Source: Burkholderia seminalis DSM 23518 (GTDB taxonomy: Bacteria > Pseudomonadota > Gammaproteobacteria > Burkholderiales > Burkholderiaceae). Taken from it: a stretch of 64,000 nt of DNA. Shown piece after piece: positions 4,457-39,305 of the stretch; within the stretch, counting starts at the first letter, position 1, and every line of letters starts with the position of its first letter. The notes under the pieces are model-generated. The model searched no databases. It was not told the origin of the DNA and saw only the letters and a list, made by a program, of their open reading frames with translations. The translations under genes were made by a program, and so were the position numbers. The stretch covers positions 1 to 64,000 of the forward strand of contig NZ_CADFDK010000010.1 of assembly GCF_902832885.1 (NCBI RefSeq), given 5' to 3'.

Positions 4457-5039
4457 GTTCGCCCCGGGCGCGGGTGCCGAGGACGAAGAGACGGACGCCG
4501 CCGGCCGTTTCTTCGTCGTGACGGGCGGCCCGGGTTCGGGCAAGAGCACGCTGCTCGATGCGCTGGAGCGCGCCGGCTTTGCGCGCTCGCAGGAAGCCGG
4601 GCGCGGCGTGATCCGCGACCAGATGGCGATCGACGGCCTCGCGCTGCCGTGGCGCGACCCGGCGGCGTTCGCCGAGCTGATGCTGAGCTGGGAGATGCGT
4701 TCGTACCACCTCGCGCGGCAGGCGCGCGGGCCCGTGTTCTTCGATCGCGGCGTGCCGGACGTGGTCGGCTACCTGCGGCTGACGGGCCTGCCGGTCCCCG
4801 CGCACGCGGAAGCGGCGGCCCGCCGTTTTCGCTATCACCGGCGTGTGTTCATCGCGCCGCCGTGGCCCGACATCTATATGCAGGACACCGAGCGCCGGCA
4901 GGATTTCGCGGAAGCCGAGCGGACCTACGACGCGATGGTCGAGTGCTACACGTCGTACGGCTACCGGCTGATCGAGTTGCCGCGCGTCGGCGTCAAGGCG
5001 CGCGTGCGCTTCGTGATGGACGCGCTCGACGGCGCGTGA
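4449..5039 (+). CDS. AAA family ATPase, P-loop kinase-like
   Basis: The protein has 196 residues with a Walker A loop TGGPGSGKST at about 25-34 and the overall pattern of the small single-domain AAA family found in many proteobacteria (phosphotransferase-like, substrate unknown). Other visible motifs are EAGRGVIRDQ and FFDRGVPDVVGYLR, the latter fitting a Walker-B/lid position. The ATG overlaps the end of otsA by 8 bp, so its translation is probably coupled to trehalose synthesis. A direct role there is only an inference. Confidence 0.8.
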   Translation: MREFAPGAGAEDEETDAAGRFFVVTGGPGSGKSTLLDALERAGFARSQEAGRGVIRDQMAIDGLALPWRDPAAFAELMLSWEMRSYHLARQARGPVFFDRGVPDVVGYLRLTGLPVPAHAEAAARRFRYHRRVFIAPPWPDIYMQDTERRQDFAEAERTYDAMVECYTSYGYRLIELPRVGVKARVRFVMDALDGA

Positions 5040-5058
5040 CGCCCGTCGCGCGGTAGTC

Positions 5059-6426
5059 TCAGGTCGCCGTGTCCGGCCTTGGCGACGTGATGCGCAGCAT
5101 GCTCACGACGGCCGCCACCGCCGCGAATGCCGTGGCGACATAGAGCGCGATCGTCGGCCCGCGATCGGGCGACAGCCCGAAAATCAGCGCGACCAGCGCG
5201 GCGCCGAGCGTCTGGCCGGTCAGGCGCGCGGTGCTCAGCATGCCGCCCGCGCCGCCGCTGCGCTCGCGTGGCGCGGACGACAGCATCGCGCGGTTGTTCG
5301 GCGACTGGAACAGCCCGAAGCCCGCGCCGCACAGCGCCATCCGCCACACGATGTCGACGGTGCCCGGATGCGCGCCGATCGTCGCGAGCGACAGCAGCCC
5401 GGCCGCGAACAGCGCGAGCCCGATCCCGCCGAGGATGCCGGCCGAATAGCGGTCCGACAGCACGCCCGCGAGCGGCGCGGCGAACACGATCACGAGCGGC
5501 CACGGCGTCATGTACAGGCCCGTCTCGACCTGCGAGAAGCCGAGCGAGTTCTGCAGCCAGAACGGCAGCGCGACGAACGCAAGCATCTGCGACGTGAACG
5601 ATGCCATCGACGTGTAGATCGACAGCGCGAACATCGGGATGCGCATCAGGTCGACGGGCAGCAGCGGCGCCGGCTGCGACAGCTGGCGCTTCACGAAGAA
5701 GTAGCCGACGACGAACGCCACCGCCAGCTCGGCCGCGACGTACGCATGGCGTTCGCCGTGGCCGAGCCCGTCGACGGCCGTGATCAGCAGGCCGAACACG
5801 CACGCGTTCATCAGCGCGCTCGGGAAATCGTAAGGCGCGTCGTGCAGCGGGTTGGCCGGCAGCGCGCGCAGGCTGCCGAGGACCGCGGCGATGCCGATCG
5901 GCACGTTGACCGCGAACAGCCACGGCCACGATGCGAACGACAGGATCGCGGAGGCGACCGTCGGCCCGATCGCCGACGACAGCGCGACGACCATCGCATT
6001 GATCGACAGCCCGCGCCCGAGCATCGACGACGGGTAGATCATCCGCACGAGCGCCGCGTTGACGCTCATGATGCCGGCCGCGCCGAACCCCTGGATCACG
6101 CGCATCACGGCCAGCATCGGCAGCGAGCCGGCCAGCGCGCAGCCGAGCGAGGCCGCGGTGAACAGCGCGAGCCCGGCGATGTAGATGCGGCGATAGCCGA
6201 TGCGCTCGCCGAGCGACGCGAGCGGCAGCAGCGTGATCGTGACCGCGAGCTGGTACGCGTTGACGATCCAGATCGATGCGGCGTCGGACGCGTGGAGGTC
6301 GCGCGCGATCGTCGGCAGCGCGACGTTCGCGATGGCGCCGTCGAGCACGGCGAGCGTGATGCCCAGGGCGACGCAGACGATCGCCCAGTAGCGTTGCGGA
6401 AGCGGCAGGCCGGTATCGGCGTTCAT
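5059..6426 (-). CDS. MFS transporter, DHA2-like drug exporter
   Basis: The protein has 455 residues and many hydrophobic segments with short loops, giving the profile of a major-facilitator proton antiporter in the inner membrane. Diagnostic stretches are the first helix AIVCVALGITLAVLDGAIANVALP (motif D2 of the DHA family), GERIGYRR (motif A) and RVIQGFGAA (motif B). The start was placed at the ATG at 6426, directly before the cytoplasmic leader; an upstream in-frame start would add 18 unlikely residues. Substrate unknown. It is convergent with the otsA operon, with only 19 bases between stops. Confidence 0.85.
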   Translation of the reverse strand: MNADTGLPLPQRYWAIVCVALGITLAVLDGAIANVALPTIARDLHASDAASIWIVNAYQLAVTITLLPLASLGERIGYRRIYIAGLALFTAASLGCALAGSLPMLAVMRVIQGFGAAGIMSVNAALVRMIYPSSMLGRGLSINAMVVALSSAIGPTVASAILSFASWPWLFAVNVPIGIAAVLGSLRALPANPLHDAPYDFPSALMNACVFGLLITAVDGLGHGERHAYVAAELAVAFVVGYFFVKRQLSQPAPLLPVDLMRIPMFALSIYTSMASFTSQMLAFVALPFWLQNSLGFSQVETGLYMTPWPLVIVFAAPLAGVLSDRYSAGILGGIGLALFAAGLLSLATIGAHPGTVDIVWRMALCGAGFGLFQSPNNRAMLSSAPRERSGGAGGMLSTARLTGQTLGAALVALIFGLSPDRGPTIALYVATAFAAVAAVVSMLRITSPRPDTAT

Positions 6427-6608
6427 GACGGGAGCGAGAGCTTGGTTGTCCGCGCACCCGGTTGCCGGTTGCGTGCGCAACCATGCGCGAGGGTGGCGGC
6501 GATGAACGGCCCGCTCGGTGCGGCGGCACCGGAACGGGGCCGGTCGAGTGTATCACCGGGCCGCATGACGCGACGCCGGCATGCTCGGCCGCGGGCCGGC
6601 GCGGGCAC

Positions 6609-6989
6609 TCAGCCTTCGAAGTCGAGGCCGCCGAGCCGCACGAGCGGATCGGCCTGCGTGCGCGACGCGAGATCGATGTCGCGCGCGCCCTGCCACGCGC
6701 CCAGCTTTCTCGGCAGCGCGGCCAGGTAGTGCTCGAAGCGCTGCGGGCCGTCCGGCTCCATCAGCCGCTCGATTTCGTCGGTGTCCCAGGTCAGCTCGAG
6801 ATTCAGCGGATGCTCGAAGCCGCTCACATGCTCGTGCGGCGCGCTGCGGATCTGCACGCGCGTCGGATGCCCGTGGCCACCGTACGGGACGACGTCGGTC
6901 AGTACGTGCTCGGCGAAGAAGGCGGCGATTGCCTGCGCGATGCGCGGCGCGAATTCGGTATCGAAACGGCGGGCGGTTTCGGGCTGCAT
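6609..6989 (-). CDS. hypothetical protein (126 aa)
   Basis: A soluble protein with no signal or membrane segment. It starts with MQPETARRFD and ends in a conserved-looking RLGGLDFEG. The start at 6989 is supported by a good AGGAGA site; the longer same-frame extension is not preceded by one. The function is not recognised. Codon usage is typical of the chromosome. Confidence 0.7.
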   Translation of the reverse strand: MQPETARRFDTEFAPRIAQAIAAFFAEHVLTDVVPYGGHGHPTRVQIRSAPHEHVSGFEHPLNLELTWDTDEIERLMEPDGPQRFEHYLAALPRKLGAWQGARDIDLASRTQADPLVRLGGLDFEG

Positions 6990-7145
6990 GAAGGCGTCTC
7001 CTGTGTGCCGAAAATCGTAGCACGGCGGCGCGGCGTTCCGGTGGGCCCGATGCCGGTAATCGCGCGTTACCACTTGCTGCATCTATTACGGCCGCGTGCC
7101 GCCACAATGCATCGCATCCAGTACCACTTCGCGTGGGAGTCCATC

Positions 7146-7508
7146 ATGAAAAAGATTGCCGCAGTGTGTGTCCTCGCCGGTTCGCTCGCCATCGCGGGCC
7201 CGGCGTCCGCGCATGGCCGCGACGGCGGCGCCGTCATCGGCGCATTGATCGGCGGCGCGGTGCTGGGCGCGATCGTGACGTCCGCGATGAATCCGCCCGT
7301 CGCGTATCAGGCGCCCGCCTACCAGGCACCGGCCTATCAGCCGCCGACGTACTACCAGGCGCCGGCATACCAGCAGCCGGCGTATCCGACCTATCAGCAG
7401 GCGCAGTACCAGGACGACGGCCCGAACTATTGCTACGACCGTTACCAGCGCGCGTATGTGTGCGGTGCGCCGGTGCGGGGCGGCTACGCGCAGCCGGCCG
7501 GCTGGTAA
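7146..7508 (+). CDS. secreted Tyr/Pro/Ala-rich protein with glycine-zipper-like segment
   Basis: The protein has 120 residues with a clear Sec signal peptide (MKKIAAVCVLAGSLAIAGPASA, cleavage after ASA). A hydrophobic Gly-rich segment (AVIGALIGGAVLGAIV) of glycine-zipper type is followed by a low-complexity region repeating YQAPAYQ/P, then a two-cysteine C-terminus (NYCYDRYQRAYVCG). Probably periplasmic or cell-surface; function unknown. A strong hairpin terminator follows 84 bases downstream. Confidence 0.75.
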   Translation: MKKIAAVCVLAGSLAIAGPASAHGRDGGAVIGALIGGAVLGAIVTSAMNPPVAYQAPAYQAPAYQPPTYYQAPAYQQPAYPTYQQAQYQDDGPNYCYDRYQRAYVCGAPVRGGYAQPAGW

Positions 7509-28057: not shown

Positions 28058-28972
28058 ATGTCGCACAAATCTCTCACGGCCGACCTGTGCCGTGCTGCGC
28101 GCGGGGCGCGTGGCAAACAGGCAAACTCGACCTCCAACGGTCGAGAGAAGTCGCTCGCCCGTTTCGCTCGGTTTCTGTGGGACACGGGCTTCCAGGTTCA
28201 CACGACCGGTCAGCTCAAAGAGAAGCATCTGATCGCCTGGTCGAATGACATGACGGGCCGAGGGCGCTCGAAGCGGACGGCCATCAACAACATGACGCAC
28301 ATCCGAACGGCACTCGAAGGGATCGGTCGCCGGCCATTTGCCGACAAGATGAGCAATGCGGCGCTCGGTCTGTCGGGCGCGAGCAGGGCCGGAACGAAGC
28401 GGCCGATGATGCGCGACGAGCTGGAGCCATACCGCGCTGCCGCTGCTGCGATCGACCCGGGTATTGCGGTTGTGCTTGAGCTGCAGCTCGAACTTGGGCT
28501 GCGAGCGAGGGAGGCGGTTCAAAGCATCAAATCGCTGGCTGATTGGCGGCGCGCGCTTTCGAGCCCGATCGGGGATGGCTTCGTGACCATCATCCACGGG
28601 ACGAAGGGTGGCAAGACGCGACGGAGTCCGCCATTGGATCGGCAGCGCGCTGCCGAGTTGGTGGGGCGTGCGATTGAACTGTCGAACGAGTACGGCGGCA
28701 AGCTGGTGCGCAAGCCGGATCTGAGGCGGGCGATGGAACGTTACCACTACGTGGTGCGCAAGGTTGGCATGACCGATGAGCGCGCGCCGCATAGCCTCCG
28801 CTACGCATACGCAACCGAGCATCTGGAGCGACAGAAGGCTGCCGGCGTATCGCGCCGGGAGGCGGCCGCAGGCGTGTCGACATGGCTCGGCCACGGGGAC
28901 GGACGCGGGACATGGGTGGAGCGGGTCTACGGGCGCGAGGTGCTTGCTGGGGTGGAGGTGCGCCATGCATAA
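28058..28972 (+). CDS. tyrosine recombinase, Integrase_1-type
   Basis: The protein has 304 residues. The N-terminal SAM-like core-binding domain (FARFLWDTGFQVHTTGQLKEKHLIAW) is followed by the catalytic domain. Visible catalytic residues are Arg in ELGLRAREAV, His and Arg in HSLRYAYA, His in WLGHGDGRG and the Tyr in RVYGREV. A longer upstream extension of the frame lacks family likeness, so the ATG at 28058 is chosen. It overlaps the AlpA-like gene by 8 bp, an integrase-plus-directionality-factor layout. It is distinct from the P4-type integrase at the element's end. Confidence 0.85.
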   Translation: MSHKSLTADLCRAARGARGKQANSTSNGREKSLARFARFLWDTGFQVHTTGQLKEKHLIAWSNDMTGRGRSKRTAINNMTHIRTALEGIGRRPFADKMSNAALGLSGASRAGTKRPMMRDELEPYRAAAAAIDPGIAVVLELQLELGLRAREAVQSIKSLADWRRALSSPIGDGFVTIIHGTKGGKTRRSPPLDRQRAAELVGRAIELSNEYGGKLVRKPDLRRAMERYHYVVRKVGMTDERAPHSLRYAYATEHLERQKAAGVSRREAAAGVSTWLGHGDGRGTWVERVYGREVLAGVEVRHA

Positions 28973-29177
28973 GCACGTCGACACGCTGCCCGAGGTGGGT
29001 CACTCGCGCTGGAGGCAAATCGCTCCGTTTGTGGGCGTGTGCCGAGAGACATGGCGAAAGCTGTGTTTGGCTGGACGCGCACCGCAACCGATTCAATTGT
29101 CACCGCGGTGCACGGTTTGGCGAAATGACCAGGTACACCAGTATCTGGCGGACCCACTGCAATATAAGGCGGAGTAA
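28965..29177 (+). CDS. AlpA-like helix-turn-helix regulator, copy 2
   Basis: The protein has 70 residues. The core HSRWRQIAPFVGVCRETWRKLCLAGRAPQPIQL is closely similar to that of the 18099 gene, pointing to duplication or acquisition of two related modules. It overlaps the integrase by 8 bp. Probably the directionality factor or regulator for that integrase. Confidence 0.75.
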   Translation: MHKHVDTLPEVGHSRWRQIAPFVGVCRETWRKLCLAGRAPQPIQLSPRCTVWRNDQVHQYLADPLQYKAE

Positions 29178-29271
29178 AAATGCGCTAGCTTTATGGCCCG
29201 AGGAGATCAAGATTCATACTCGAAGGCCGATATCGGAACTATACGTTTCTTTACCTTGGGAGTTGCGTGAC

Positions 29272-30084
29272 ATGAAGTGCCATCGCTTCAATATCGGGAA
29301 TCTCGAAAATGGTGGAGATGTCAACGAATGGTGGGCCGAGAATGTCCGGCGCGGCGTAATCACGGCAGGTTTTGATGGCGAGCCCGGTGATGAGGGCGAG
29401 AAACACTTGCGAGCGATGGACGAGGGGGACCGAGTTCTCGCTTATGCAAGTGGCTATGGCTATGTTGGAGCCGGATGCGTACTTAGAGATAGTACGTACC
29501 GCTTGCATGCCAATGTGCCGCTCGGATCGGTATCGACACATCAGCACGAGCGAGGTGTCCGGTGGGAATTCGTGATCTGCGATGTCCGGGACGCCATCAG
29601 CGAAGAGGAGGCTCGCCTCTACCATCCGATGAAAACCCGCTTACCGGTTGCGAATGCGTTCGAGGCGGACCATCTCATGGCCTTGCTGAAGGAGAGAGGA
29701 ATTCGGCAGGAAATCGACCTAGCCACTCTTCAGGCTGATTTTGGTGAGGCGGTAAGGCGGTCCAGTTTCGATTCGCGAACTGCACGACAGGCACGGCTAA
29801 AAGCCGCACCCAAGCTACCTGAAAGGATCACTGTTTCCACAGACGTCTATCTTCGGAATCCGGACGTGGTTGCGGAGGTGTTGGATCTAGCGCAAGGACA
29901 ATGTCAAGAATGCGGGAAGTCCGCACCATTCGCGAGGAAAAGTGATGGCAGTCCATACTTGGAGGTGCATCATCGTGTGCGACTGGCAGATGGTGGTGAG
30001 GACACGATCGAAAATGCCGTTGCGCTGTGCCCGAATTGTCATCGGGAGCTGCATTTCGGGAGACGCCTAGAGGCGGGCAAGTAG
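29272..30084 (+). CDS. EVE/PUA-like domain plus HNH endonuclease, probable modification-dependent restriction enzyme
   Basis: The protein has 270 residues. The N-terminal half (NEWWAENVRRGVITAGF ... GDRVLAYASGYGYVGAGCV) has the pattern of the EVE/PUA superfamily, a base-flipping reader of modified nucleotides. The C-terminal domain is an HNH nuclease with CQECG, LEVHHRVRLADGGEDTIENAVALCPNCHRELH, including the zinc cysteines and catalytic His. EVE-HNH fusions are known type IV restriction enzymes. The GC content is low, as for acquired defence genes. The start at 29272 follows GGGAG; an upstream extension overlaps the AlpA-like gene and is not credible. Confidence 0.75.
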   Translation: MKCHRFNIGNLENGGDVNEWWAENVRRGVITAGFDGEPGDEGEKHLRAMDEGDRVLAYASGYGYVGAGCVLRDSTYRLHANVPLGSVSTHQHERGVRWEFVICDVRDAISEEEARLYHPMKTRLPVANAFEADHLMALLKERGIRQEIDLATLQADFGEAVRRSSFDSRTARQARLKAAPKLPERITVSTDVYLRNPDVVAEVLDLAQGQCQECGKSAPFARKSDGSPYLEVHHRVRLADGGEDTIENAVALCPNCHRELHFGRRLEAGK

Positions 30085-31425: not shown

Positions 31426-32655
31426 CTATCGTGCGACGTCGAGGGGGATGATCGCGGCCCCCGCCTCAAGTGCATCTAAATAGTCGGCCCAGTGCTGCAT
31501 CATTTTTCGACGTTCAGGCAGAAACTCAGCATGCACGTATGCCGCGGTGACTTGATTGCGCTCTGCGTGGGCAAGCTGACGATCGACAACATCGCGGCTA
31601 TAACCGAGTTCGCGAAGCACGGTAGCGGCCAGACCGCGGAATCCGTGTCCGGTCATTCGCGACTTGTAGCCCATGCGGTAGAGCGCATAGAGCATCGTGT
31701 TGTTCGAGATGTGGCTTCGGCCCTGGATGCTATAGAACACATGCCGGTGGGCGCCGTTTAGTTCGCGCAACGCGGCCAGTGTGTCGAGCGCTTGGCGCGA
31801 AAGCGGGACGATGTGTGGATCGCGCATCTTCATGCGCTCGGGCGGAATCCGCCATTCGGCCGCGCGCTCGTCGAACTCGTCCCACTCCGCGTTGATCATC
31901 TCGGTTGTCCGAGTGAACGTCAGAGCCATGAAGCGGAGCGCCAGCCGCGTGACGAGATCGCCTTGGTACGCTGCGATGTCTCTCATGAGCTGCGGGATTT
32001 CGATGGGCTTGACCCGTGCCATGTGTTTGACGCCGGTGCCTTTCTTGAGAACGGTCTCGGCGTCAATGTCTGCAGCCGGATTGCGAGGGCATCGCCCGGT
32101 CATGATTCCGTACTGGAACACCGCCCGTGAGCGCTGGAGGATGCGTTTAGCCGTCTCGCGTACACCGCGGGATTCGACGGCCCTCAGGATCTCTAGCATG
32201 TCAGGCGCCTCGATGTCTCGGATCGGGCGATGGCCGACTTTAGGAAAGACATCGACTTCAAGCGAACTGATCACCTTGGCCGCGTACACCTCGGTCCATC
32301 CGTCTTTCTGAGCAGCAAACCACTCGCGCGCGACAGCCTCAAACGTCGACGCTGCTTCGATCGCCCGAGCGCGTTTGACTTCCCGCTTCTGTTCGGTCGG
32401 ATCGGTGCCGGCGGCGAGTTGCTTCCGTGCATTGAGGCAGGCCTGTCGAGCCTCGGCCAGTGTCACCTCTGGATAGACGCCAAAGGCGGCGCGCTTCTCT
32501 TTGCCGTCGAAGCGGTACTTCATCCGCCAGTAGCGTGACCCGTTCGGCATGACCTCCAGATACAACCCTTTGCCGTCAGCCAGGCGATACGGCTTCTCGG
32601 CCGGCTTGGCCTTGCGGATCTGCATCTCGGTCAGCGGGGTAGCGCGCTTCGGCAT
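31426..32655 (-). CDS. P4-type tyrosine integrase (DUF4102 N-terminus) of element A
   Basis: The protein has 409 residues, standard for the P4/prophage CP4 integrase family. The N-terminal arm-binding domain (TEMQIRKAKPAEKPYRLADGKGLYLEVMPNGSRYWRMKYRFDGKEKRAAFGVYPEVTLAEAR) is DUF4102. Catalytic residues are Arg in FTRTTEMINAEW, HGFRGLA (His and Arg), His in LAHAERNQV and Tyr in AAYVHAE. It reads away from the tRNA, with its start 168 bases from the tRNA 3' end, the usual P4-like arrangement. The start at 32655 is taken; an upstream in-frame ATG would add 12 unlikely residues. Confidence 0.92.
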   Translation of the reverse strand: MPKRATPLTEMQIRKAKPAEKPYRLADGKGLYLEVMPNGSRYWRMKYRFDGKEKRAAFGVYPEVTLAEARQACLNARKQLAAGTDPTEQKREVKRARAIEAASTFEAVAREWFAAQKDGWTEVYAAKVISSLEVDVFPKVGHRPIRDIEAPDMLEILRAVESRGVRETAKRILQRSRAVFQYGIMTGRCPRNPAADIDAETVLKKGTGVKHMARVKPIEIPQLMRDIAAYQGDLVTRLALRFMALTFTRTTEMINAEWDEFDERAAEWRIPPERMKMRDPHIVPLSRQALDTLAALRELNGAHRHVFYSIQGRSHISNNTMLYALYRMGYKSRMTGHGFRGLAATVLRELGYSRDVVDRQLAHAERNQVTAAYVHAEFLPERRKMMQHWADYLDALEAGAAIIPLDVAR

Positions 32656-32822
32656 GGCATGGGGGCATCGAGTTTGGGGGCATGGAGGCATGTCCCAAAA
32701 GATGCCCCCAAGTTAGGTTGCTTGTACTGGGCAACCTTGGGCAATGATGGCAGCAAAAGTCCAGGCGACACAAGGCTGTGCGCGACTTTTTGGGCAAACT
32801 TGGGAAGTGTTGGGAACTTAGA

Positions 32823-32897
32823 TGGTCCCCCCGACAGGAATCGAACCTGTATCTAGCGCTTAGGAGGCGCTTGTTCTATCCATTGAACTACGGGGAG
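32823..32897 (-). tRNA. tRNA-Arg (CCT)
   Basis: On the minus strand, a 7-bp acceptor stem CTCCCCG pairs with CGGGGGG (one G-T pair), then a D stem GTTC/GAAC, an anticodon arm AGCGC-CTCCTAA-GCGCT with anticodon CCT, and a T arm ACAGG-TTCGATT-CCTGT. The discriminator is A and CCA is encoded. It serves as the attachment target of element A, which abuts the 3' end. Without CCA it ends at 32826. Confidence 0.95.
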
Positions 32898-33033
32898 CGG
32901 ATAGTTTGAGCGGGATGGACTGAACCCGTGTGAATCAGGCTCTTAGCCTTGTCCCGTGTGCCTTTCCGGGATTTTCGTCTTTCCGCACATGACGCGAAAT
33001 GACGGGTTGTGAAGCATAGTTTAACGCCCCGCC

Positions 33034-33093
33034 TGCTACAATTCTGCTACAAATCGACCCTGTAGCAGCGTATGTGGATGACGCATTGCTACA
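33034..33093. repeat. TGCTACA repeats upstream of the element B integrase
   Basis: TGCTACA at 33034-33040, 33045-33051 and 33087-33093, and the inverse TGTAGCA at 33061-33067. Four copies within 60 bases, ending 21 bases before the integrase start, fit arm-type binding sites of the integrase. Confidence 0.6.
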
Positions 33094-33113
33094 GTCCACA
33101 AACGGGGTGTTTC

Positions 33114-34208
33114 ATGGCTTCGATCCTCAAGATCGGCGACCGCTGGCGTGCTCAAGTCCGCCGGCGGGGACAGAGTATATCAAAGACGTTTCGAACCAAG
33201 GGCGCGGCAGAAGCATGGGCGCGAGAGATCGAGGGCGGTATCGACAAGGGGCAAGCCGCCGTCGACGAGCACACGATCACGGTCGGCGAGTTGGTGCGCT
33301 TGTATCGAAACGCTCGCAACGATTCCGGCCGGCCGGTCGCCGAGAAGTCGAACGAAGACTACATGCTCAAGCGGCTGGAAAGTCACTTTGATGATGAGGT
33401 GGCGGCGAAGTTGTCGACCAAGCGGCTGGTCAAGTTTGCCCAGGAGCGCAAGAAAGAGGGGGCGGGGCAGTACACGATCGACATGGACATATCCAAACTC
33501 GGGACGGTGTACAAACACATGGCCTCGTTACTGGATCTCCGGTTGCCGCATGCTCCGAGCATCGCGCGGCCGACCCTCGATCACCTGCAGCTCATCGGGC
33601 CGGGGAAGCATCGCGACCGGCGGCCGACACGTGAAGAGATCGTGAAGATCTTCGAGTGGTTTTCTGAACATCCAGAGCGCGAACAGGCGGTGCCGGATGT
33701 TATCCGCGTTGCGATGAAGAGCGCATTCCGGCGTGGCGAGCTATTTCGGTTGACGTGGTCGGATCTCGACGTCGAGCGCCGGCTCGCGCTCGTCCGCGAT
33801 CGCAAACATCCGCGACAGAAGAAGGGCAACGACGAGTGGGTGCCGCTGATCGGCGACTCGCTCGAAGTGCTGCTGCGTCAGGCGCGATATCCGGTGCCGC
33901 CTGCATACGAGGCGAAGCGCAGGGCGGACCCGAAGATCGAGCCGCATCCGAACGAGTACATCTTTCGGTTCGACAAGAGCACGGCGAGCAAGTACTTCAA
34001 GCTGGCCTGCGTCGACAAGGGCATCGTCGACCTTCGATTGCACGATCTGCGGCACGAAGCGACGAGTGCGCTCTTCGAGGACGGGTGGGATATTCCGGAG
34101 GTCGCGGCCGTGACAGGCCACAAGGATTGGCGCAACCTGAAGCGCTACACGAATCTGCGGCCGGATCAGGTTGCGAAGAAGGGGCAATTGAAGTTGGTGA
34201 ATGAGTAG
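33114..34208 (+). CDS. int: tyrosine recombinase, integrase of element B
   Basis: The protein has 364 residues. The N-terminus (ILKIGDRWRAQVRRRGQSISKTFRTKGAAEAWAREIE) is an arm-binding AP2-like domain, followed by a SAM-like domain and the catalytic core. Catalytic residues are Arg in SAFRRGELFRL, HDLRHEA, His in TGHKDWRN and Tyr in RYTNLRP. The start at 33114 is preferred; upstream in-frame codons run through the TGCTACA repeat region. It reads inward from the left edge. Confidence 0.9.
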   Translation: MASILKIGDRWRAQVRRRGQSISKTFRTKGAAEAWAREIEGGIDKGQAAVDEHTITVGELVRLYRNARNDSGRPVAEKSNEDYMLKRLESHFDDEVAAKLSTKRLVKFAQERKKEGAGQYTIDMDISKLGTVYKHMASLLDLRLPHAPSIARPTLDHLQLIGPGKHRDRRPTREEIVKIFEWFSEHPEREQAVPDVIRVAMKSAFRRGELFRLTWSDLDVERRLALVRDRKHPRQKKGNDEWVPLIGDSLEVLLRQARYPVPPAYEAKRRADPKIEPHPNEYIFRFDKSTASKYFKLACVDKGIVDLRLHDLRHEATSALFEDGWDIPEVAAVTGHKDWRNLKRYTNLRPDQVAKKGQLKLVNE

Positions 34209-34214
34209 ACTGAG

Positions 34215-35126
34215 TTACGCTTCTACGTCAACGTCCAGCAATTCGGGCACGCCGTCATAAACTGGAACCGGAATCATCAGGTTCGAAATGGCAAGTTCGC
34301 GAGCGGTGCGACTTGATTTGACGTTGTAGTCGAGATAGATCGGCTGAACCGTATTTGCGGCGTACAGTTCGCGAATACGAGGGTGGTCATCATAGCTCAA
34401 CAGCCACGGATAGCCTTGAGTTTGTAGAAACTGAGCAAGGGCAATGTGGTCTGCGTCTGTATAGTGGTGTCGATAAAGCTTCGGGCCTTGTTGATAATAT
34501 GGCGGATCGACGTATACAAACGAAAAACCCGTTGCGATTTCCTCTGCATTAGTGCGCATGAAGGAAATTGCGTCATCGCAATAAATTCTAACTCGGTCGG
34601 CAAAGCGAGCCACTGAGCGAATCTGTCGGATTATTTTTTCTTTGTTGAAGCGACAGTCAATCTTGTAGCGAGAAGCTTGGGCTTCTCCGCCGATTGGCCC
34701 TGCTCCGAGAATACCGGAAAAATTTGTTCGATTGTAGAATAGGCCAGCTACACCGAGCTGCAAGATCGTAAACTGCCCGTCTGCCGGATAGGCTACCTCT
34801 CTTGTGGGTTGTAGCTGGGCCCATGTCTCCATGGTGACCGGGCATGCATTGACGGCTGCGCAGAGGTCTTCAGTGATATTGAAGACACACCACCAGAACG
34901 CGTATACCAATGGATCGCGCTCGATCAGTACTGCACTAGAGATAAAGCCTAGACGAAGCAGTTCCAGCGAAACCGAGGCGCCGCCCGCAAATGGCTCATA
35001 AAAGGTGCAACCATTCAGATAATTTTCTTCGATGACACCACTGATATAGGCGGCTAGCCGTGCCTTCCCGCCTGGATATCGCAGTGGACTAAGAGGTTCC
35101 TTGCGAGGGAGGAGTTTCTTGGGCAT
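34215..35126 (-). CDS. DNA adenine N6-methyltransferase (Dam, D12 class)
   Basis: The protein has 303 residues. The SAM-binding motifs LRYPGGKARL and FYEPFAGGASVSL and the catalytic VDPPYYQQG (DPPY) are intact in the order of D12-class enzymes. It should methylate adenine, but the target sequence cannot be read off. The start lies two bases after the stop of the ParB-like gene, with a GGAAGGA site inside that gene, so the two are one transcript. The pair is AT-richer than its neighbours and sits just behind the integrase, a usual cargo position. Confidence 0.88.
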   Translation of the reverse strand: MPKKLLPRKEPLSPLRYPGGKARLAAYISGVIEENYLNGCTFYEPFAGGASVSLELLRLGFISSAVLIERDPLVYAFWWCVFNITEDLCAAVNACPVTMETWAQLQPTREVAYPADGQFTILQLGVAGLFYNRTNFSGILGAGPIGGEAQASRYKIDCRFNKEKIIRQIRSVARFADRVRIYCDDAISFMRTNAEEIATGFSFVYVDPPYYQQGPKLYRHHYTDADHIALAQFLQTQGYPWLLSYDDHPRIRELYAANTVQPIYLDYNVKSSRTARELAISNLMIPVPVYDGVPELLDVDVEA

Positions 35127-35128
35127 GT

Positions 35129-36550
35129 TCAGTTTCCTTCCAAAATATACTGAATGACGCCACGAATGTTGTTTGCAATTGTTTCCAGTGTCGGTGCGTC
35201 GGCCTGTTGATACTTGAGGTGCGTCATCGAGTCGAGATAGTCTTTGGCTTGCTTCGTGGTGCCGGCGGAGAGAACTCGACAAATCTTATTCTCCAAGAAC
35301 ACCCCGTTATGGAAGTTCGAACAAAAGCTGATCATGCTTGCGAGCGCGGGGTCGCGGCCCGGTTGCTTTTCGAGCTTCATGAGTTCGCCCCATTTTTTGG
35401 CCTTTTTAATTTGATAAACCAATGCGCATTCGAATAGCGCCCGAAGAATTAAAGACGCCGAAATTGGTGTGGTCTTGTGGTTGATCCCACGAATTTCCCG
35501 AGTTAATGCAATCAAATTGTCATCGGTTACGTGACACTCAAGCTTCTCGAAGAAAATAGATATCTTTTGCGTTTTTGGACGCGGTGCGCCGCCACCGGGG
35601 CCGCCTGCAGGTTGATCCGGTGCTTTGGGGTCTTTGCCGTCGCCTTTGGGTTGCTGACGTGGCTCTGCAGGTTTGACGTGCTTCTTGCCTTCGGGCGATT
35701 CGAGAAACCGTTCAAAATACTTCATCGGTTCCGTACGGGTATCGCAACGTGGCTTGCCTTTCTCGGGGTCTGGGAGCAGAAAGTCGCGTGCTATTGCGAT
35801 CATCTGCTCTTTGAAGACTTTCGGAGGCAGGGCGCTGACAGGGTTCTGATCGGCGTCGAACGATAACTGCAAGATACGCTGGGTGTCTGCCAACGTGAAG
35901 AAGCGCGTATAGGGGTTCGTGACAAGTTTTTCGTTCTCGAGCACTGCGCGTTCGTCGTCAGTCCATGTGTCGAGATCGAGCGCGAACTTGAGAAGTCTGT
36001 ACGGCTTCACAAGTTTTCGAATTTGGCCCGGCGTTGTGCCGAGCGCTTCAGCAACTTTGTCTATTGGGGCGTGCTCGAGCATGCGCACGGCTCGGCGCAT
36101 CTTCGCTACCGGCGACCAAGGTTTTGCGCTGCGCTCCGTATGGCGCTTCGTCAACACCGGATCGGCTGCTTCTCGGTTCGGCGCTACGTCGGCGCTCAGT
36201 TTGCGCAGTGTAGCTTTGACAGCGGGTGGGGCGGCAGGGAATCGGCCGACAAACTCCTCAGGAATGAGCGATGGGTCTAGCAGCATTTGGCAAGCGGCGA
36301 CGCGGCGATTCCCTTCGAGGACGACGTGCTTCCCTCCCTCAACAACGGTGATGATGCGCTCGCCATGAAAGAGACCTTCGTTCCGAATGATTCCTCGTGC
36401 CAGGTCAAGCACGTCTTCGAATCTCAGAAGTTTCGCGCGAATCTCGGCCGGCTTGGCGTTCGGTTCAATTTCGATACGTGGATTGCGTAGGTCCAGTTGA
36501 ATCTTCTTGGGATCGAGTTCTGCGGTCGACCACTGCTCGCTAACTGCCAT
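35129..36550 (-). CDS. ParB-like nuclease-fold protein with helical C-terminal domain, partner of Dam
   Basis: The protein has 473 residues. Residues about 55-95 (GLFHGERIITVVEGGKHVVLEGNRRVAACQMLL) are the ParB/Srx core with EGNRR in place of the GxRR/GERR box. A helix-turn-helix-like part (KVAEALGTTPGQIRKLVKPYRLL) follows. A Pro/Gly/Lys-rich linker (about residues 275-315) leads to a C-terminal helical domain (SASLILRALFECALVYQIKKAKKWGEL) that I do not recognise. It is co-transcribed with a Dam-type methylase and visibly AT-rich. Not a partition gene by context; a defence or DNA-modification role is inferred. Confidence 0.65.
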   Translation of the reverse strand: MAVSEQWSTAELDPKKIQLDLRNPRIEIEPNAKPAEIRAKLLRFEDVLDLARGIIRNEGLFHGERIITVVEGGKHVVLEGNRRVAACQMLLDPSLIPEEFVGRFPAAPPAVKATLRKLSADVAPNREAADPVLTKRHTERSAKPWSPVAKMRRAVRMLEHAPIDKVAEALGTTPGQIRKLVKPYRLLKFALDLDTWTDDERAVLENEKLVTNPYTRFFTLADTQRILQLSFDADQNPVSALPPKVFKEQMIAIARDFLLPDPEKGKPRCDTRTEPMKYFERFLESPEGKKHVKPAEPRQQPKGDGKDPKAPDQPAGGPGGGAPRPKTQKISIFFEKLECHVTDDNLIALTREIRGINHKTTPISASLILRALFECALVYQIKKAKKWGELMKLEKQPGRDPALASMISFCSNFHNGVFLENKICRVLSAGTTKQAKDYLDSMTHLKYQQADAPTLETIANNIRGVIQYILEGN

Positions 36551-36630
36551 CTTTCGCCCCGGATATTATTAAGTTGGTGAGGATATACATGATTTTAACG
36601 CGGCGCGCCACCAGTCGCGCCCGACGTGGA

Positions 36631-36861
36631 CTATGCGGCTTCTGCGCGGGCGCGACGGGACATATCATCGAGGTAGTCCGCGACTGCATCGTATGCGGCA
36701 AATCGGCCGCCACCTTCCTTGTAAGTGGGTATCGGGAACGTCTCGGCACTGATTTGATTGCGGATGGTCCCCTCCGACATCAGCAGCAGCTGTGCGAGCT
36801 GCGCCAGTGTCATGCGCGGGCCGTACTTCTCAAGTATGTATGCGCGGGTCAGCAGGCTCAC
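36631..36861 (-). CDS. excisionase-like helix-turn-helix protein
   Basis: The protein has 76 residues. MTLAQLAQLLLMSEGTIRNQISAETFPIPTYKEGGGRFAAYDAVADYLD is a helix-turn-helix and wing of the excisionase/pyocin-activator type. It starts with GTG, overlapping the previous stop as GTGA, so it is coupled to the 36858 gene. It is the last gene of the leftward early operon that starts near 39936. Confidence 0.7.
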   Translation of the reverse strand: MSLLTRAYILEKYGPRMTLAQLAQLLLMSEGTIRNQISAETFPIPTYKEGGGRFAAYDAVADYLDDMSRRARAEAA

Positions 36862-37235
36862 AGCGCCCTCCCGTTCAGATTGTTGGTTGCAGGGTGAAGT
36901 CGCGCTTCGGCGCGCATGTTGATTAGGCGGTTGATAGCTTCAGCCAGCGCCTCGTCGGGGGTGTGCGACGGGATCATCGGTGACAGCAACGCGAAAAGCG
37001 CGCTGCCCACGTTCGCGAGACCTGCGATGGTCCGCTCATCATTCGGCTCGAATGCTAGGTCAGCATCGTAGACAGCGTGGAAATGGTCGATTGCCCGTGT
37101 TGCATGAAGGTATCGCTCCGCCTGCTCCATCAGATCGATGCAGTCGATGTGAGCGGCACGCAGGCGCTTCACGGCCGCGACCACGATCTCACGAGCTTTG
37201 GAGATGTGTGCGGCATAGAGAGCTTGATCAGTCAT
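36858..37235 (-). CDS. hypothetical helical phage protein (125 aa)
   Basis: A helical soluble protein (ALYAAHISKAREIVVAAVKRLRAAHIDCIDLMEQAERYLHATRAIDHFHAVYDADLAF). It overlaps both neighbours, so is part of the leftward operon. No domain recognised. Confidence 0.6.
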   Translation of the reverse strand: MTDQALYAAHISKAREIVVAAVKRLRAAHIDCIDLMEQAERYLHATRAIDHFHAVYDADLAFEPNDERTIAGLANVGSALFALLSPMIPSHTPDEALAEAINRLINMRAEARLHPATNNLNGRAL

Positions 37236-37719
37236 GTTGAGTTGCCTGTGTGATGGGGTTGGGGAACGCGCGTGCGAGTTGCATGAGGCCGGTTTCGAGC
37301 GTGATGCCGGCGGTTGCTGCCCAGGTGCGCGCGTCCTGCGCCGCCTTGTGGCGGGCGAACGAGCCGCTCTCGTCGGCCATTAGGTCCAGCAACTCGACGT
37401 CGGCCGCGTGCGAGATCTCGGTGATCAACGCGCGGATCTCGGTGCGAAGGGCGTCGAACCGCGCGAGCCTGCCTTGGCGGGTGTCCGCCAAGGCTTCGTT
37501 CGCCTGGATAGGTTTGCGCCGCGCGAGCGGCGCTTCGTCCTTCTGGATCGCTTTTGCGGGCGTCAGCCCGTCGTTGTCCGACTGCATTGAAGTGCCGTTG
37601 ACGCTCGCCAGTGCGATAGCCGGGCGCTTCTTCGCGTGTTCCCGCTTTCGCGGCAGCGGACGTGGGGTAGAAAGGGCCGGGCGCGGGGTCAATTTGCGGC
37701 TCCAGTCGGGAATGGCCAT
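37228..37719 (-). CDS. hypothetical phage protein (163 aa)
   Basis: A basic, Pro-rich N-terminal half is followed by a helical acidic C-terminal half (RLARFDALRTEIRALITEISHAADVELLDLMADESGSFARHKAAQDARTWAA). It overlaps the ParB-like gene upstream by 31 bp and the next gene by 8 bp. Function unknown. Confidence 0.55.
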   Translation of the reverse strand: MAIPDWSRKLTPRPALSTPRPLPRKREHAKKRPAIALASVNGTSMQSDNDGLTPAKAIQKDEAPLARRKPIQANEALADTRQGRLARFDALRTEIRALITEISHAADVELLDLMADESGSFARHKAAQDARTWAATAGITLETGLMQLARAFPNPITQATQHD

Positions 37720-39305
37720 GCGGACGCGGGATCGAGAGCGGGCTTTGCTTTCCGTGCAGGGAATGCGGCATCGAGCAGTGCCTTGTTCGACGAGATCCGC
37801 TGCTTGTGCCCAATGGCAGTCAACACATCGGACAGATCGGGGCGTTCCCCCTTGGCGGTGGCGGCGGAGAATTCGGCGGTCATGTCGGGGTCAGGCATGC
37901 CGATGATCTCGTTCGCCCATTCGAGAATGCGCTTAAACGATGCTTGCTCTGCCTTCGATCGCCCGTGGACCGGCGATTTGATAGTCTCGATGAGCCGCGC
38001 TGCGCCGGAGCGAATCGCTTGGGCGCGCGTCCATACCGCGCGCGTCTGGTGCGATACCTTCAGCGGTTCACTCGCAAAGCTGGTGCCGGTGTTGTATTCG
38101 ATCGCGTAGATCCATGCGCCGGGTGCGGGCTGTGCGACGCGAATGTATGCGAGCGGCCCCTTAATTCTTCCGGTTCGCTCAGGTCCGCATACCGTATCGA
38201 CAGGCTCGCAGCAGCCGTTTGCATCCGGCTCGGACACCGGCCAAACCTTTGGGGTTGAGGGGCGGCCGAGTAGATCGGCGAGCGGCATCAGCGCGGTATG
38301 AACTGCTTCGATCGTCGGCTTTGCCAGTCGGCCGAAGTTCTTGTCATGGAGTACAGCCTGCAGTGCCTGCAAAAGTTGCTTTGACTGCTTCTCGCTGATC
38401 TTGGTGGGGGCGCTTTGCCGCGATGCTGCCTGCATCGGTGCCTGCGTCTCGATCGTGGCATCCGCGGCCGTCGACGCGACGAGCGGTGCGGCGTGAGCGT
38501 CGGTGTCGATGCCGCTGTTGACGGCTGCAGGGACTGCGCGCTCGGGCGACGGTTCCTGGTCCGAATGCGTATCGAGCAGGGGCACCGCTTCGAGGTACTT
38601 CTTCGTTACCTTCGTCTTGCCGGCTTCAGCGGCTTTGGAGATCCCGACGACGATGCGTTCGAGCGCTTTGTCGCCGCCGTGCAGGCGGATCTGCTCGATG
38701 GCCAGTGTGCCGGTACATTGACCGATCCGAATGAGCTGATGCAGTTCGGCCGGTGCCCGTTCGAGCAGGCCGACGTCGCGGATCGTTTGATCGGTGACGT
38801 TCAAGCGCTTGCAGATGGCGGCAAGCGTCATGCCATGAATGTCGCGCAGCTCCGCGACGGCAGCGGCCAGATCAAGCGGCGACGACTGCTTGCCGTTGTT
38901 GCTGAGATAGCCGTCGATCACCATTTCAGCGCGGTTGACCGTCTTGGCGTCGCGGACGACGACCGGGATCTTGCCGATGTCCTTGCCGGCTTCGATTGCC
39001 TTTCCGGCCGCAAGGTAGCGGTGCTGCCCCTTGTACACGAACAGCAGATCCTTGCCCGCGACCTTTCGCGCGTAGCAATGGAGAGGTGAACCCTTGTCGT
39101 ACCCGTTTTCCATCATCAGTGCAGTGAGGTGTTTCACCCACTCCGGGTCAACCGGTCGGATGTTGTCGGACGGGTCGTAGTGAAGCTGTCCGTAGGGGAC
39201 CATCCATAGGTCCGCTGATGTTGCGCCGGCTGCAGCGGCTGCCGCCTTGATGTTGCCGGTCGGGATCGGCGCGGTGAGGTCGAGCTGTTGCGTGCGGTCG
39301 TCCAT
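37689..39305 (-). CDS. ParB N-terminal domain protein of element B
   Basis: The protein has 538 residues. Residues about 35-110 (WMVPYGQLHYDPSDNIRPVDPEWVKHL...LLFVYKGQHRYLAAGKAIEAGKDIGKIPVVVRD) form a ParB/Srx fold with GQHRYLAAGKA as the nucleotide-binding box. The following part (IHGMTLAAICKRLNVTDQTIRDVGLLERAP) is the ParB-type helix-turn-helix. The C-terminal half is unusual and Ala/Pro-rich. No parA is nearby, so chromosome-style partition is unlikely; a DNA-processing or transcription role in the early operon is more likely. Confidence 0.75.
   Translation of the reverse strand: MDDRTQQLDLTAPIPTGNIKAAAAAAGATSADLWMVPYGQLHYDPSDNIRPVDPEWVKHLTALMMENGYDKGSPLHCYARKVAGKDLLFVYKGQHRYLAAGKAIEAGKDIGKIPVVVRDAKTVNRAEMVIDGYLSNNGKQSSPLDLAAAVAELRDIHGMTLAAICKRLNVTDQTIRDVGLLERAPAELHQLIRIGQCTGTLAIEQIRLHGGDKALERIVVGISKAAEAGKTKVTKKYLEAVPLLDTHSDQEPSPERAVPAAVNSGIDTDAHAAPLVASTAADATIETQAPMQAASRQSAPTKISEKQSKQLLQALQAVLHDKNFGRLAKPTIEAVHTALMPLADLLGRPSTPKVWPVSEPDANGCCEPVDTVCGPERTGRIKGPLAYIRVAQPAPGAWIYAIEYNTGTSFASEPLKVSHQTRAVWTRAQAIRSGAARLIETIKSPVHGRSKAEQASFKRILEWANEIIGMPDPDMTAEFSAATAKGERPDLSDVLTAIGHKQRISSNKALLDAAFPARKAKPALDPASAWPFPTGAAN

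Follow-up and report, generated by a model that had tools for sequence, protein, structure and literature searches.

The 64,000-nucleotide stretch of the Burkholderia seminalis DSM 23518 genome analysed here (contig NZ_CADFDK010000010.1, positions 1 to 64,000; hereafter the window) carries a two-gene cassette that, judged from its sequence, looks like a divergent member of the described system PD-lambda-5. Gene A (35129..36550, minus strand) starts with ATG and encodes a ParB/Srx-HEPN-like protein of 473 amino acids (aa), which is PD-Lambda-5_A-like and belongs to phrog_9592. Gene B (34215..35126, minus strand) encodes a PD-Lambda-5_B-like, D12-class N6-adenine DNA methyltransferase of 303 aa. 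The longest open reading frame (ORF) of B begins at a TTG at 35282, and its start is likely the ATG at 35126, 2 bases past the stop of A, which gives the 303 aa. A Shine-Dalgarno-like GGAAGGA (35141-35135) was read in the sequence inside the last codons of A, 8 bases ahead of this ATG; together with the stop of A and the 2-bp gap it occupies 35127..35141 on the minus strand. Both genes lie on the same strand and are separated by these 2 bp only, a one-operon arrangement. The stop of B is placed 6 bases away from the stop of an integrase gene (34208), so that B and the integrase are convergent.

An earlier sequence-only reading of the window had proposed an intact methylase 2 bases behind an intact ParB-like gene, a Shine-Dalgarno site of the former inside the latter, and a pair that reads against the integrase and is richer in adenine and thymine (AT) than its surroundings. 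All of this was borne out when coordinates, lengths and frames were re-read in the sequence, the methylase also by its Pfam match (PF02086). The guanine-cytosine (GC) content of A and B together is 52.8% compared to 62.6% for the window and equals the minimum of 617 sliding stretches of the same length, which makes the pair the most AT-rich 2.3 kb of the window. The ratio of nonsynonymous to synonymous substitution rates (dN/dS) was 0.06 for A and 0.07 for B in comparison with a 95-97% identical copy (locus L034), and 0.05 for B in comparison with locus L007; nine comparisons were made, six of which gave no value since dS was saturated. Both genes are under purifying selection. The pair is real, intact, co-inherited and of the defence type.

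The structure of protein A predicted by AlphaFold (mean predicted local distance difference test score (pLDDT) of 89) displays a ParB-like core, helix-turn-helix (HTH)-like helices, a linker and a helical C-terminal domain, the same order of parts that had been deduced from the sequence. The linker is predicted to be disordered, with a pLDDT below 50 at aa 304-329. The N-terminal ParB/sulfiredoxin (Srx)-like domain, about aa 8-140 (36131..36529, minus strand), has a predicted ParB/Srx fold with a GxRR box, found as EGNRR at aa 79-83, and GNRR is unchanged in 37 of 37 relatives. ParB was matched in a sequence search of solved structures and ParB-like proteins were matched by Foldseek on viral models; no Pfam family matched A at an E-value of 0.1. 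A nuclease role of the ParB domain was considered, and evidence for such an activity was not found. Over nearly its full length (aa 6-469) A belongs to phrog_9592 (1.3e-113), a PHROGs family of unknown function.

The C-terminal domain, about aa 340-473 (35132..35533, minus strand), had been called unrecognised. Its predicted fold suggests otherwise, as it resembles the helical bundle of HEPN domains. E352, R370, E374 and H444 are conserved in this domain: H444 is kept in 37 of 37 relatives and R370 in 36 of 37, and the R, E and H are found in nearly all. The classical Rx4-6H motif is missing from A, where no R stands at the proper distance from H444 and R370 sits in an earlier helix; HEPN families having the H but no R are named in PMC3710099. 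An hhalign comparison of the domain with 12 proteins of DUF4145 (PF13643) gave a probability of 71.7 (3.8 when 4 proteins were used), a P-value of 3.5e-5 and a score of 36.2, whereas the scores of 40 column shuffles did not exceed 13.7. The HEPN-like domain is a better effector candidate than the ParB fold.

Protein B is matched by the Pfam D12 methylase family PF02086 with 57.5 bits (cut-off 22) and by the solved structure 7m6b, and its translation contains EPFAGG and DPPY, which we take to be motifs pointing to a methyltransferase. The PADLOC profile PD-Lambda-5_B (PDLC04018) aligns to aa 12-288 with 303.9 bits (2.6e-91), a match that is not specific, as E. coli methylases of the B type adjoining ATPases score above 400 bits. 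For A, 20 PD-Lambda-5_A models match at an E-value of 0.001 or better; the best one, PDLC04013 (2e-24, 84.7 bits), spans aa 11-394 of the 473 and has a moderate score and a partial cover. The suggestion that the pair is a candidate undescribed system therefore had to be given up, because both genes match PD-Lambda-5, which was published in 2022, and both ParB-HEPN fusions and an operon of HEPN, ParB and methylase genes were listed in 2013.

PD-lambda-5 emerged when libraries of E. coli genomes were selected for resistance to phages, and was termed a compacted prophage version of a restriction-modification plus abortive infection (RM+Abi) system (PMC9519451). Judged by efficiency of plating or plaque size, it gave protection from nine of the ten phages, and it was cloned in a host devoid of the mrr region, which fits an active methylase (PMC9519451). 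The ParB-like nature of its partner gene is taken here from the names of the PADLOC models and not from the text of that paper, and the likeness to the E. coli system is judged by the PADLOC profiles. By these profiles, both systems share adjacent A- and B-type genes as well as a prophage setting. The A protein of the window, in contrast, is a distant branch that has an HTH-like segment and an extended disordered linker, and its host belongs to the Burkholderiaceae, whereas PD-lambda-5 comes from E. coli. A worked-out mechanism of PD-lambda-5 was not seen in the parts of the literature looked at. Among the systems listed in PMC3710099, the fusion Saro_3948 joins a ParB-like domain to HEPN, and the MAE_28990 HEPN family shares operons with genes for ParB and methylases. 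Saro_3948 is listed there as mostly active, whereas the A protein of the window is devoid of Rx4-6H. With ParA/ParB partition systems, A shares the ParB/Srx fold and its GxRR box; no parA ATPase was found among the 8 neighbouring genes that were scanned for it. Unlike type II restriction-modification systems, the cassette is devoid of a restriction endonuclease gene, as had been noticed before: between integrase and excisionase only A and B are found, and no endonuclease profile of Pfam or PADLOC matches A.

The setting of the pair is a prophage. A tyrosine integrase (33072..34208, plus strand; Pfam PF00589, 3.3e-20) bounds the slot on one side and a small HTH gene of the excisionase type (36631..36861, minus strand; phrog_1300, 4.4e-14) on the other. 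Ten proteins scanned further to the right include primase, terminase, portal, head, sheath, baseplate and fibre proteins, and these structural genes make the element a myovirus-like prophage. A backbone gene (37228-37719) occurs in 21 of 65 genomes from this genus, including its own, and of the 20 sibling regions retrieved, seven contain the integrase (84-98%) together with the excisionase (87-97%). With ORFs of 200 aa or more taken into account, the slot between the two (34209-36630 in the window) contained A and B in two of these siblings (L143, L145) and other genes in the remaining five. One of them carries IetA and IetS (L142; 1.2e-81 and 5.7e-39), one an NA37 nucleoid-associated protein and a gene of unknown kind (L138), one genes without clear match (L147) and two a gene with a weak likeness to phosphoribosyltransferases (L148, L153). 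The slot holds variable cargo rather than core phage genes, and the placement of the pair in a prophage cargo slot is thereby corroborated. These observations bear on the view that the pair serves the phage itself, with B shielding phage DNA from host restriction and A acting as a ParB/KorB-like repressor of phage genes or copy number, in counter-defence or regulation. This is very improbable: a variable cargo slot does not suit such a function, a repressor would have no obvious need of a HEPN-like tail and the family matches a defence system.

Linkage of the two genes was followed in viral contigs, which were scanned with nine aligned A proteins. This yielded 184 pattern matches, 76 of them encoding relatives that fall into 61 clusters at 90% identity. 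When long and short A were divided at 420 aa, B was found downstream of all 39 long loci (upstream in one), and 35 of 35 clusters had B. In the 37 long loci with a HEPN-like tail, B starts at most 78 bp from the end of A. Among the 37 short loci, B is downstream in 25 and upstream in two (19 of 26 clusters with B). The sequence-only reading had described a linked two-gene cassette, and had named a ParB-like gene mostly devoid of the methylase as the observation that would speak against it; the long form shows the opposite, and the short form is followed by B in about two thirds of loci.

In cellular genomes, tblastn unveiled adjacent A and B at L001-L008, L012 and L013, with some of these loci referring to one and the same place; the same pair is found 2 bp apart in Pandoraea capi, and in Marinobacter phage AS1 (locus L022, cassette at 4986-7451) it lies next to an integrase that is convergent with it. 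A itself is rare and was found in 5 of 150 genomes, its own included, in two phage records (six when searched with the distant relative L010) and in two plasmids (four with L010). B adjoins A in AS1, Paracoccus phage Pkon1, Kosakonia and Pseudomonas phage OQ658368 (in the last on the opposite strand) and lies about 1 kb from A in a Vibrio record. B was not found near A in a Persicobacter stretch, and the record KM389401 ends within A. A profile search for A gave matches in 12 of 200 genomes, and eight loci of these genomes (L014-L021) had no B in the short flanks examined, which weighs against the linkage; seven of the eight are weak matches (E-value of 5e-7 or worse), and the genome of L014 has B about 1.7 kb away. 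The B profile matched in 54 of 200 Burkholderiaceae genomes. Seven genomes, the own one among them, reach 100 bits or more: A adjoins B in five, a protein with a P-loop-like motif takes its place in one (L172), and A was not seen in the stretch examined around the match of the seventh (L177). Long A goes with B, yet B is not confined to A. As a separate observation, locus L007 has a B that is 92% identical to that of the window and an A that is 65% identical (80% and 64% at L008); apparently, A and B of L007 were reshuffled or are diverging at very different rates.

Taken together, it is quite probable that the pair is a divergent anti-phage operon of the PD-lambda-5 type, carried as cargo of a myovirus-like prophage, in which B provides a self-mark and A is sensor and effector. 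Its function as defence is suggested by the families of both proteins. B would methylate adenine at some DNA site, as expected from its family, and would thereby mark host and prophage DNA as self. A would unite sensor and effector in a single chain, the ParB-like domain and the HTH region engaging DNA. When A meets unmarked DNA, or when infection disturbs A, the HEPN-like C-terminal domain would be unleashed and halt the infection, most likely via RNA cutting. In this form the interpretation retains from the sequence-only reading a linked and probably anti-phage cassette in a cargo slot, and drops the undescribed system and the unrecognised domain.

The same parts could conceivably constitute a toxin-antitoxin or addiction module, in which a poisonous HEPN-like A is silenced by B or by its mark, upkeep of the prophage is the main benefit and defence is a side effect. 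HEPN domains are common toxins (PMC3710099), long A never occurs without an adjacent B in the viral contigs and the cassette is located in a mobile element. This alternative is nevertheless considered unlikely, given that the relatives behind the profiles came from a selection for phage resistance and that the same slot of a sibling holds another defence system, IetAS.

Relatives of the probable anti-phage operon appear to use other effectors. The viral loci comprise 34 with a separate third gene, 38 with a HEPN tail, none with both and four with neither. Relatives with a short A are devoid of the HEPN tail, and their separate third gene is predicted to encode a PD-(D/E)XK nuclease. In this three-gene form (L053 3983-7143 and 33 further viral loci), a short ParB-like gene (phrog_3694) is accompanied by a PD-(D/E)XK-like gene of about 340 aa (phrog_14650/3984) and usually by a D12 methylase. 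The third genes that were scanned had no Pfam or PADLOC match, and a sequence search of solved structures gave no relevant one. Two residues of the third gene, D203 and K236 in the numbering of the gene at L053, are invariant. The ParB-like domain and the methylase are of the same families as in the window; the absence of a HEPN tail, the separate nuclease-like gene and a methylase often on the opposite strand (19 of the 25 short-A loci having B downstream) set the three-gene form apart. No account of it was seen in the portions of the literature searched.

Methylases of the B family also adjoin P-loop ATPases, at L028, L030, L032, L033, L201 (3632-6192) and L202 (1930-4579). The E. coli loci of this kind, whose ATPases are OLD-like, were found once in the cargo position of a P2-like prophage and once in an integrative element. 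A distant DNA search for the E. coli PD-lambda-5 operon led to a B-type methylase beside an ATPase in both regions examined (out of 3 and 99 genomes with a match). In a tree of ParB domains, the long/short label changes 8 times, some of these changes stemming from cut or extended ORFs, compared to at least 24 in 500 shuffles. The clade of the window sits on the same side as the clade of short A (support 0.93; inner supports 0.33-0.44). It is tempting, though somewhat less than an even bet, to regard one methylase family as the self-mark for swappable killing modules, namely a ParB-HEPN chain, a short ParB with a PD-(D/E)XK protein and an OLD-like AAA ATPase. ParB would then be the common reader of the mark in the first two pairings, with RNA and DNA cutting exchanged behind it. 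The apparent exchange of effectors (HEPN, PD-(D/E)XK, OLD-like) in the company of a single methylase family is new here.

The domain map, with a ParB reader, a HEPN-like effector (R370/E374/H444) and a methylase, leads to directly testable mutants, and together with the replacement of HEPN in nature by a PD-(D/E)XK-like gene it gives a rationale for the RM+Abi remark on PD-lambda-5. A methylase of the B kind alone does not tell which effector is served, and the B profile alone would half-call methylase-ATPase loci as PD-Lambda-5.

Further features were observed around the prophage. A megablast search of window positions 33000-57000 against phages gave no match. At 31426-34208, a tRNA-Arg(cct) gene (32823-32897) is flanked by two different integrases; this tRNA-Arg was considered as the attachment site and set aside, as its surroundings have no convincing second copy in the window. 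Two further ParB-fold proteins had been announced for the window: one is a ParB-like partition protein of 538 aa (37689-39305; phrog_1033, 9.4e-69), to which the A-family hidden Markov model gives no match, and the second was not found in a scan so insensitive that it also missed the first. The window also encodes a 400-aa protein (28882-30084), the C-terminal part of which matches type IV methyl-directed restriction profiles.
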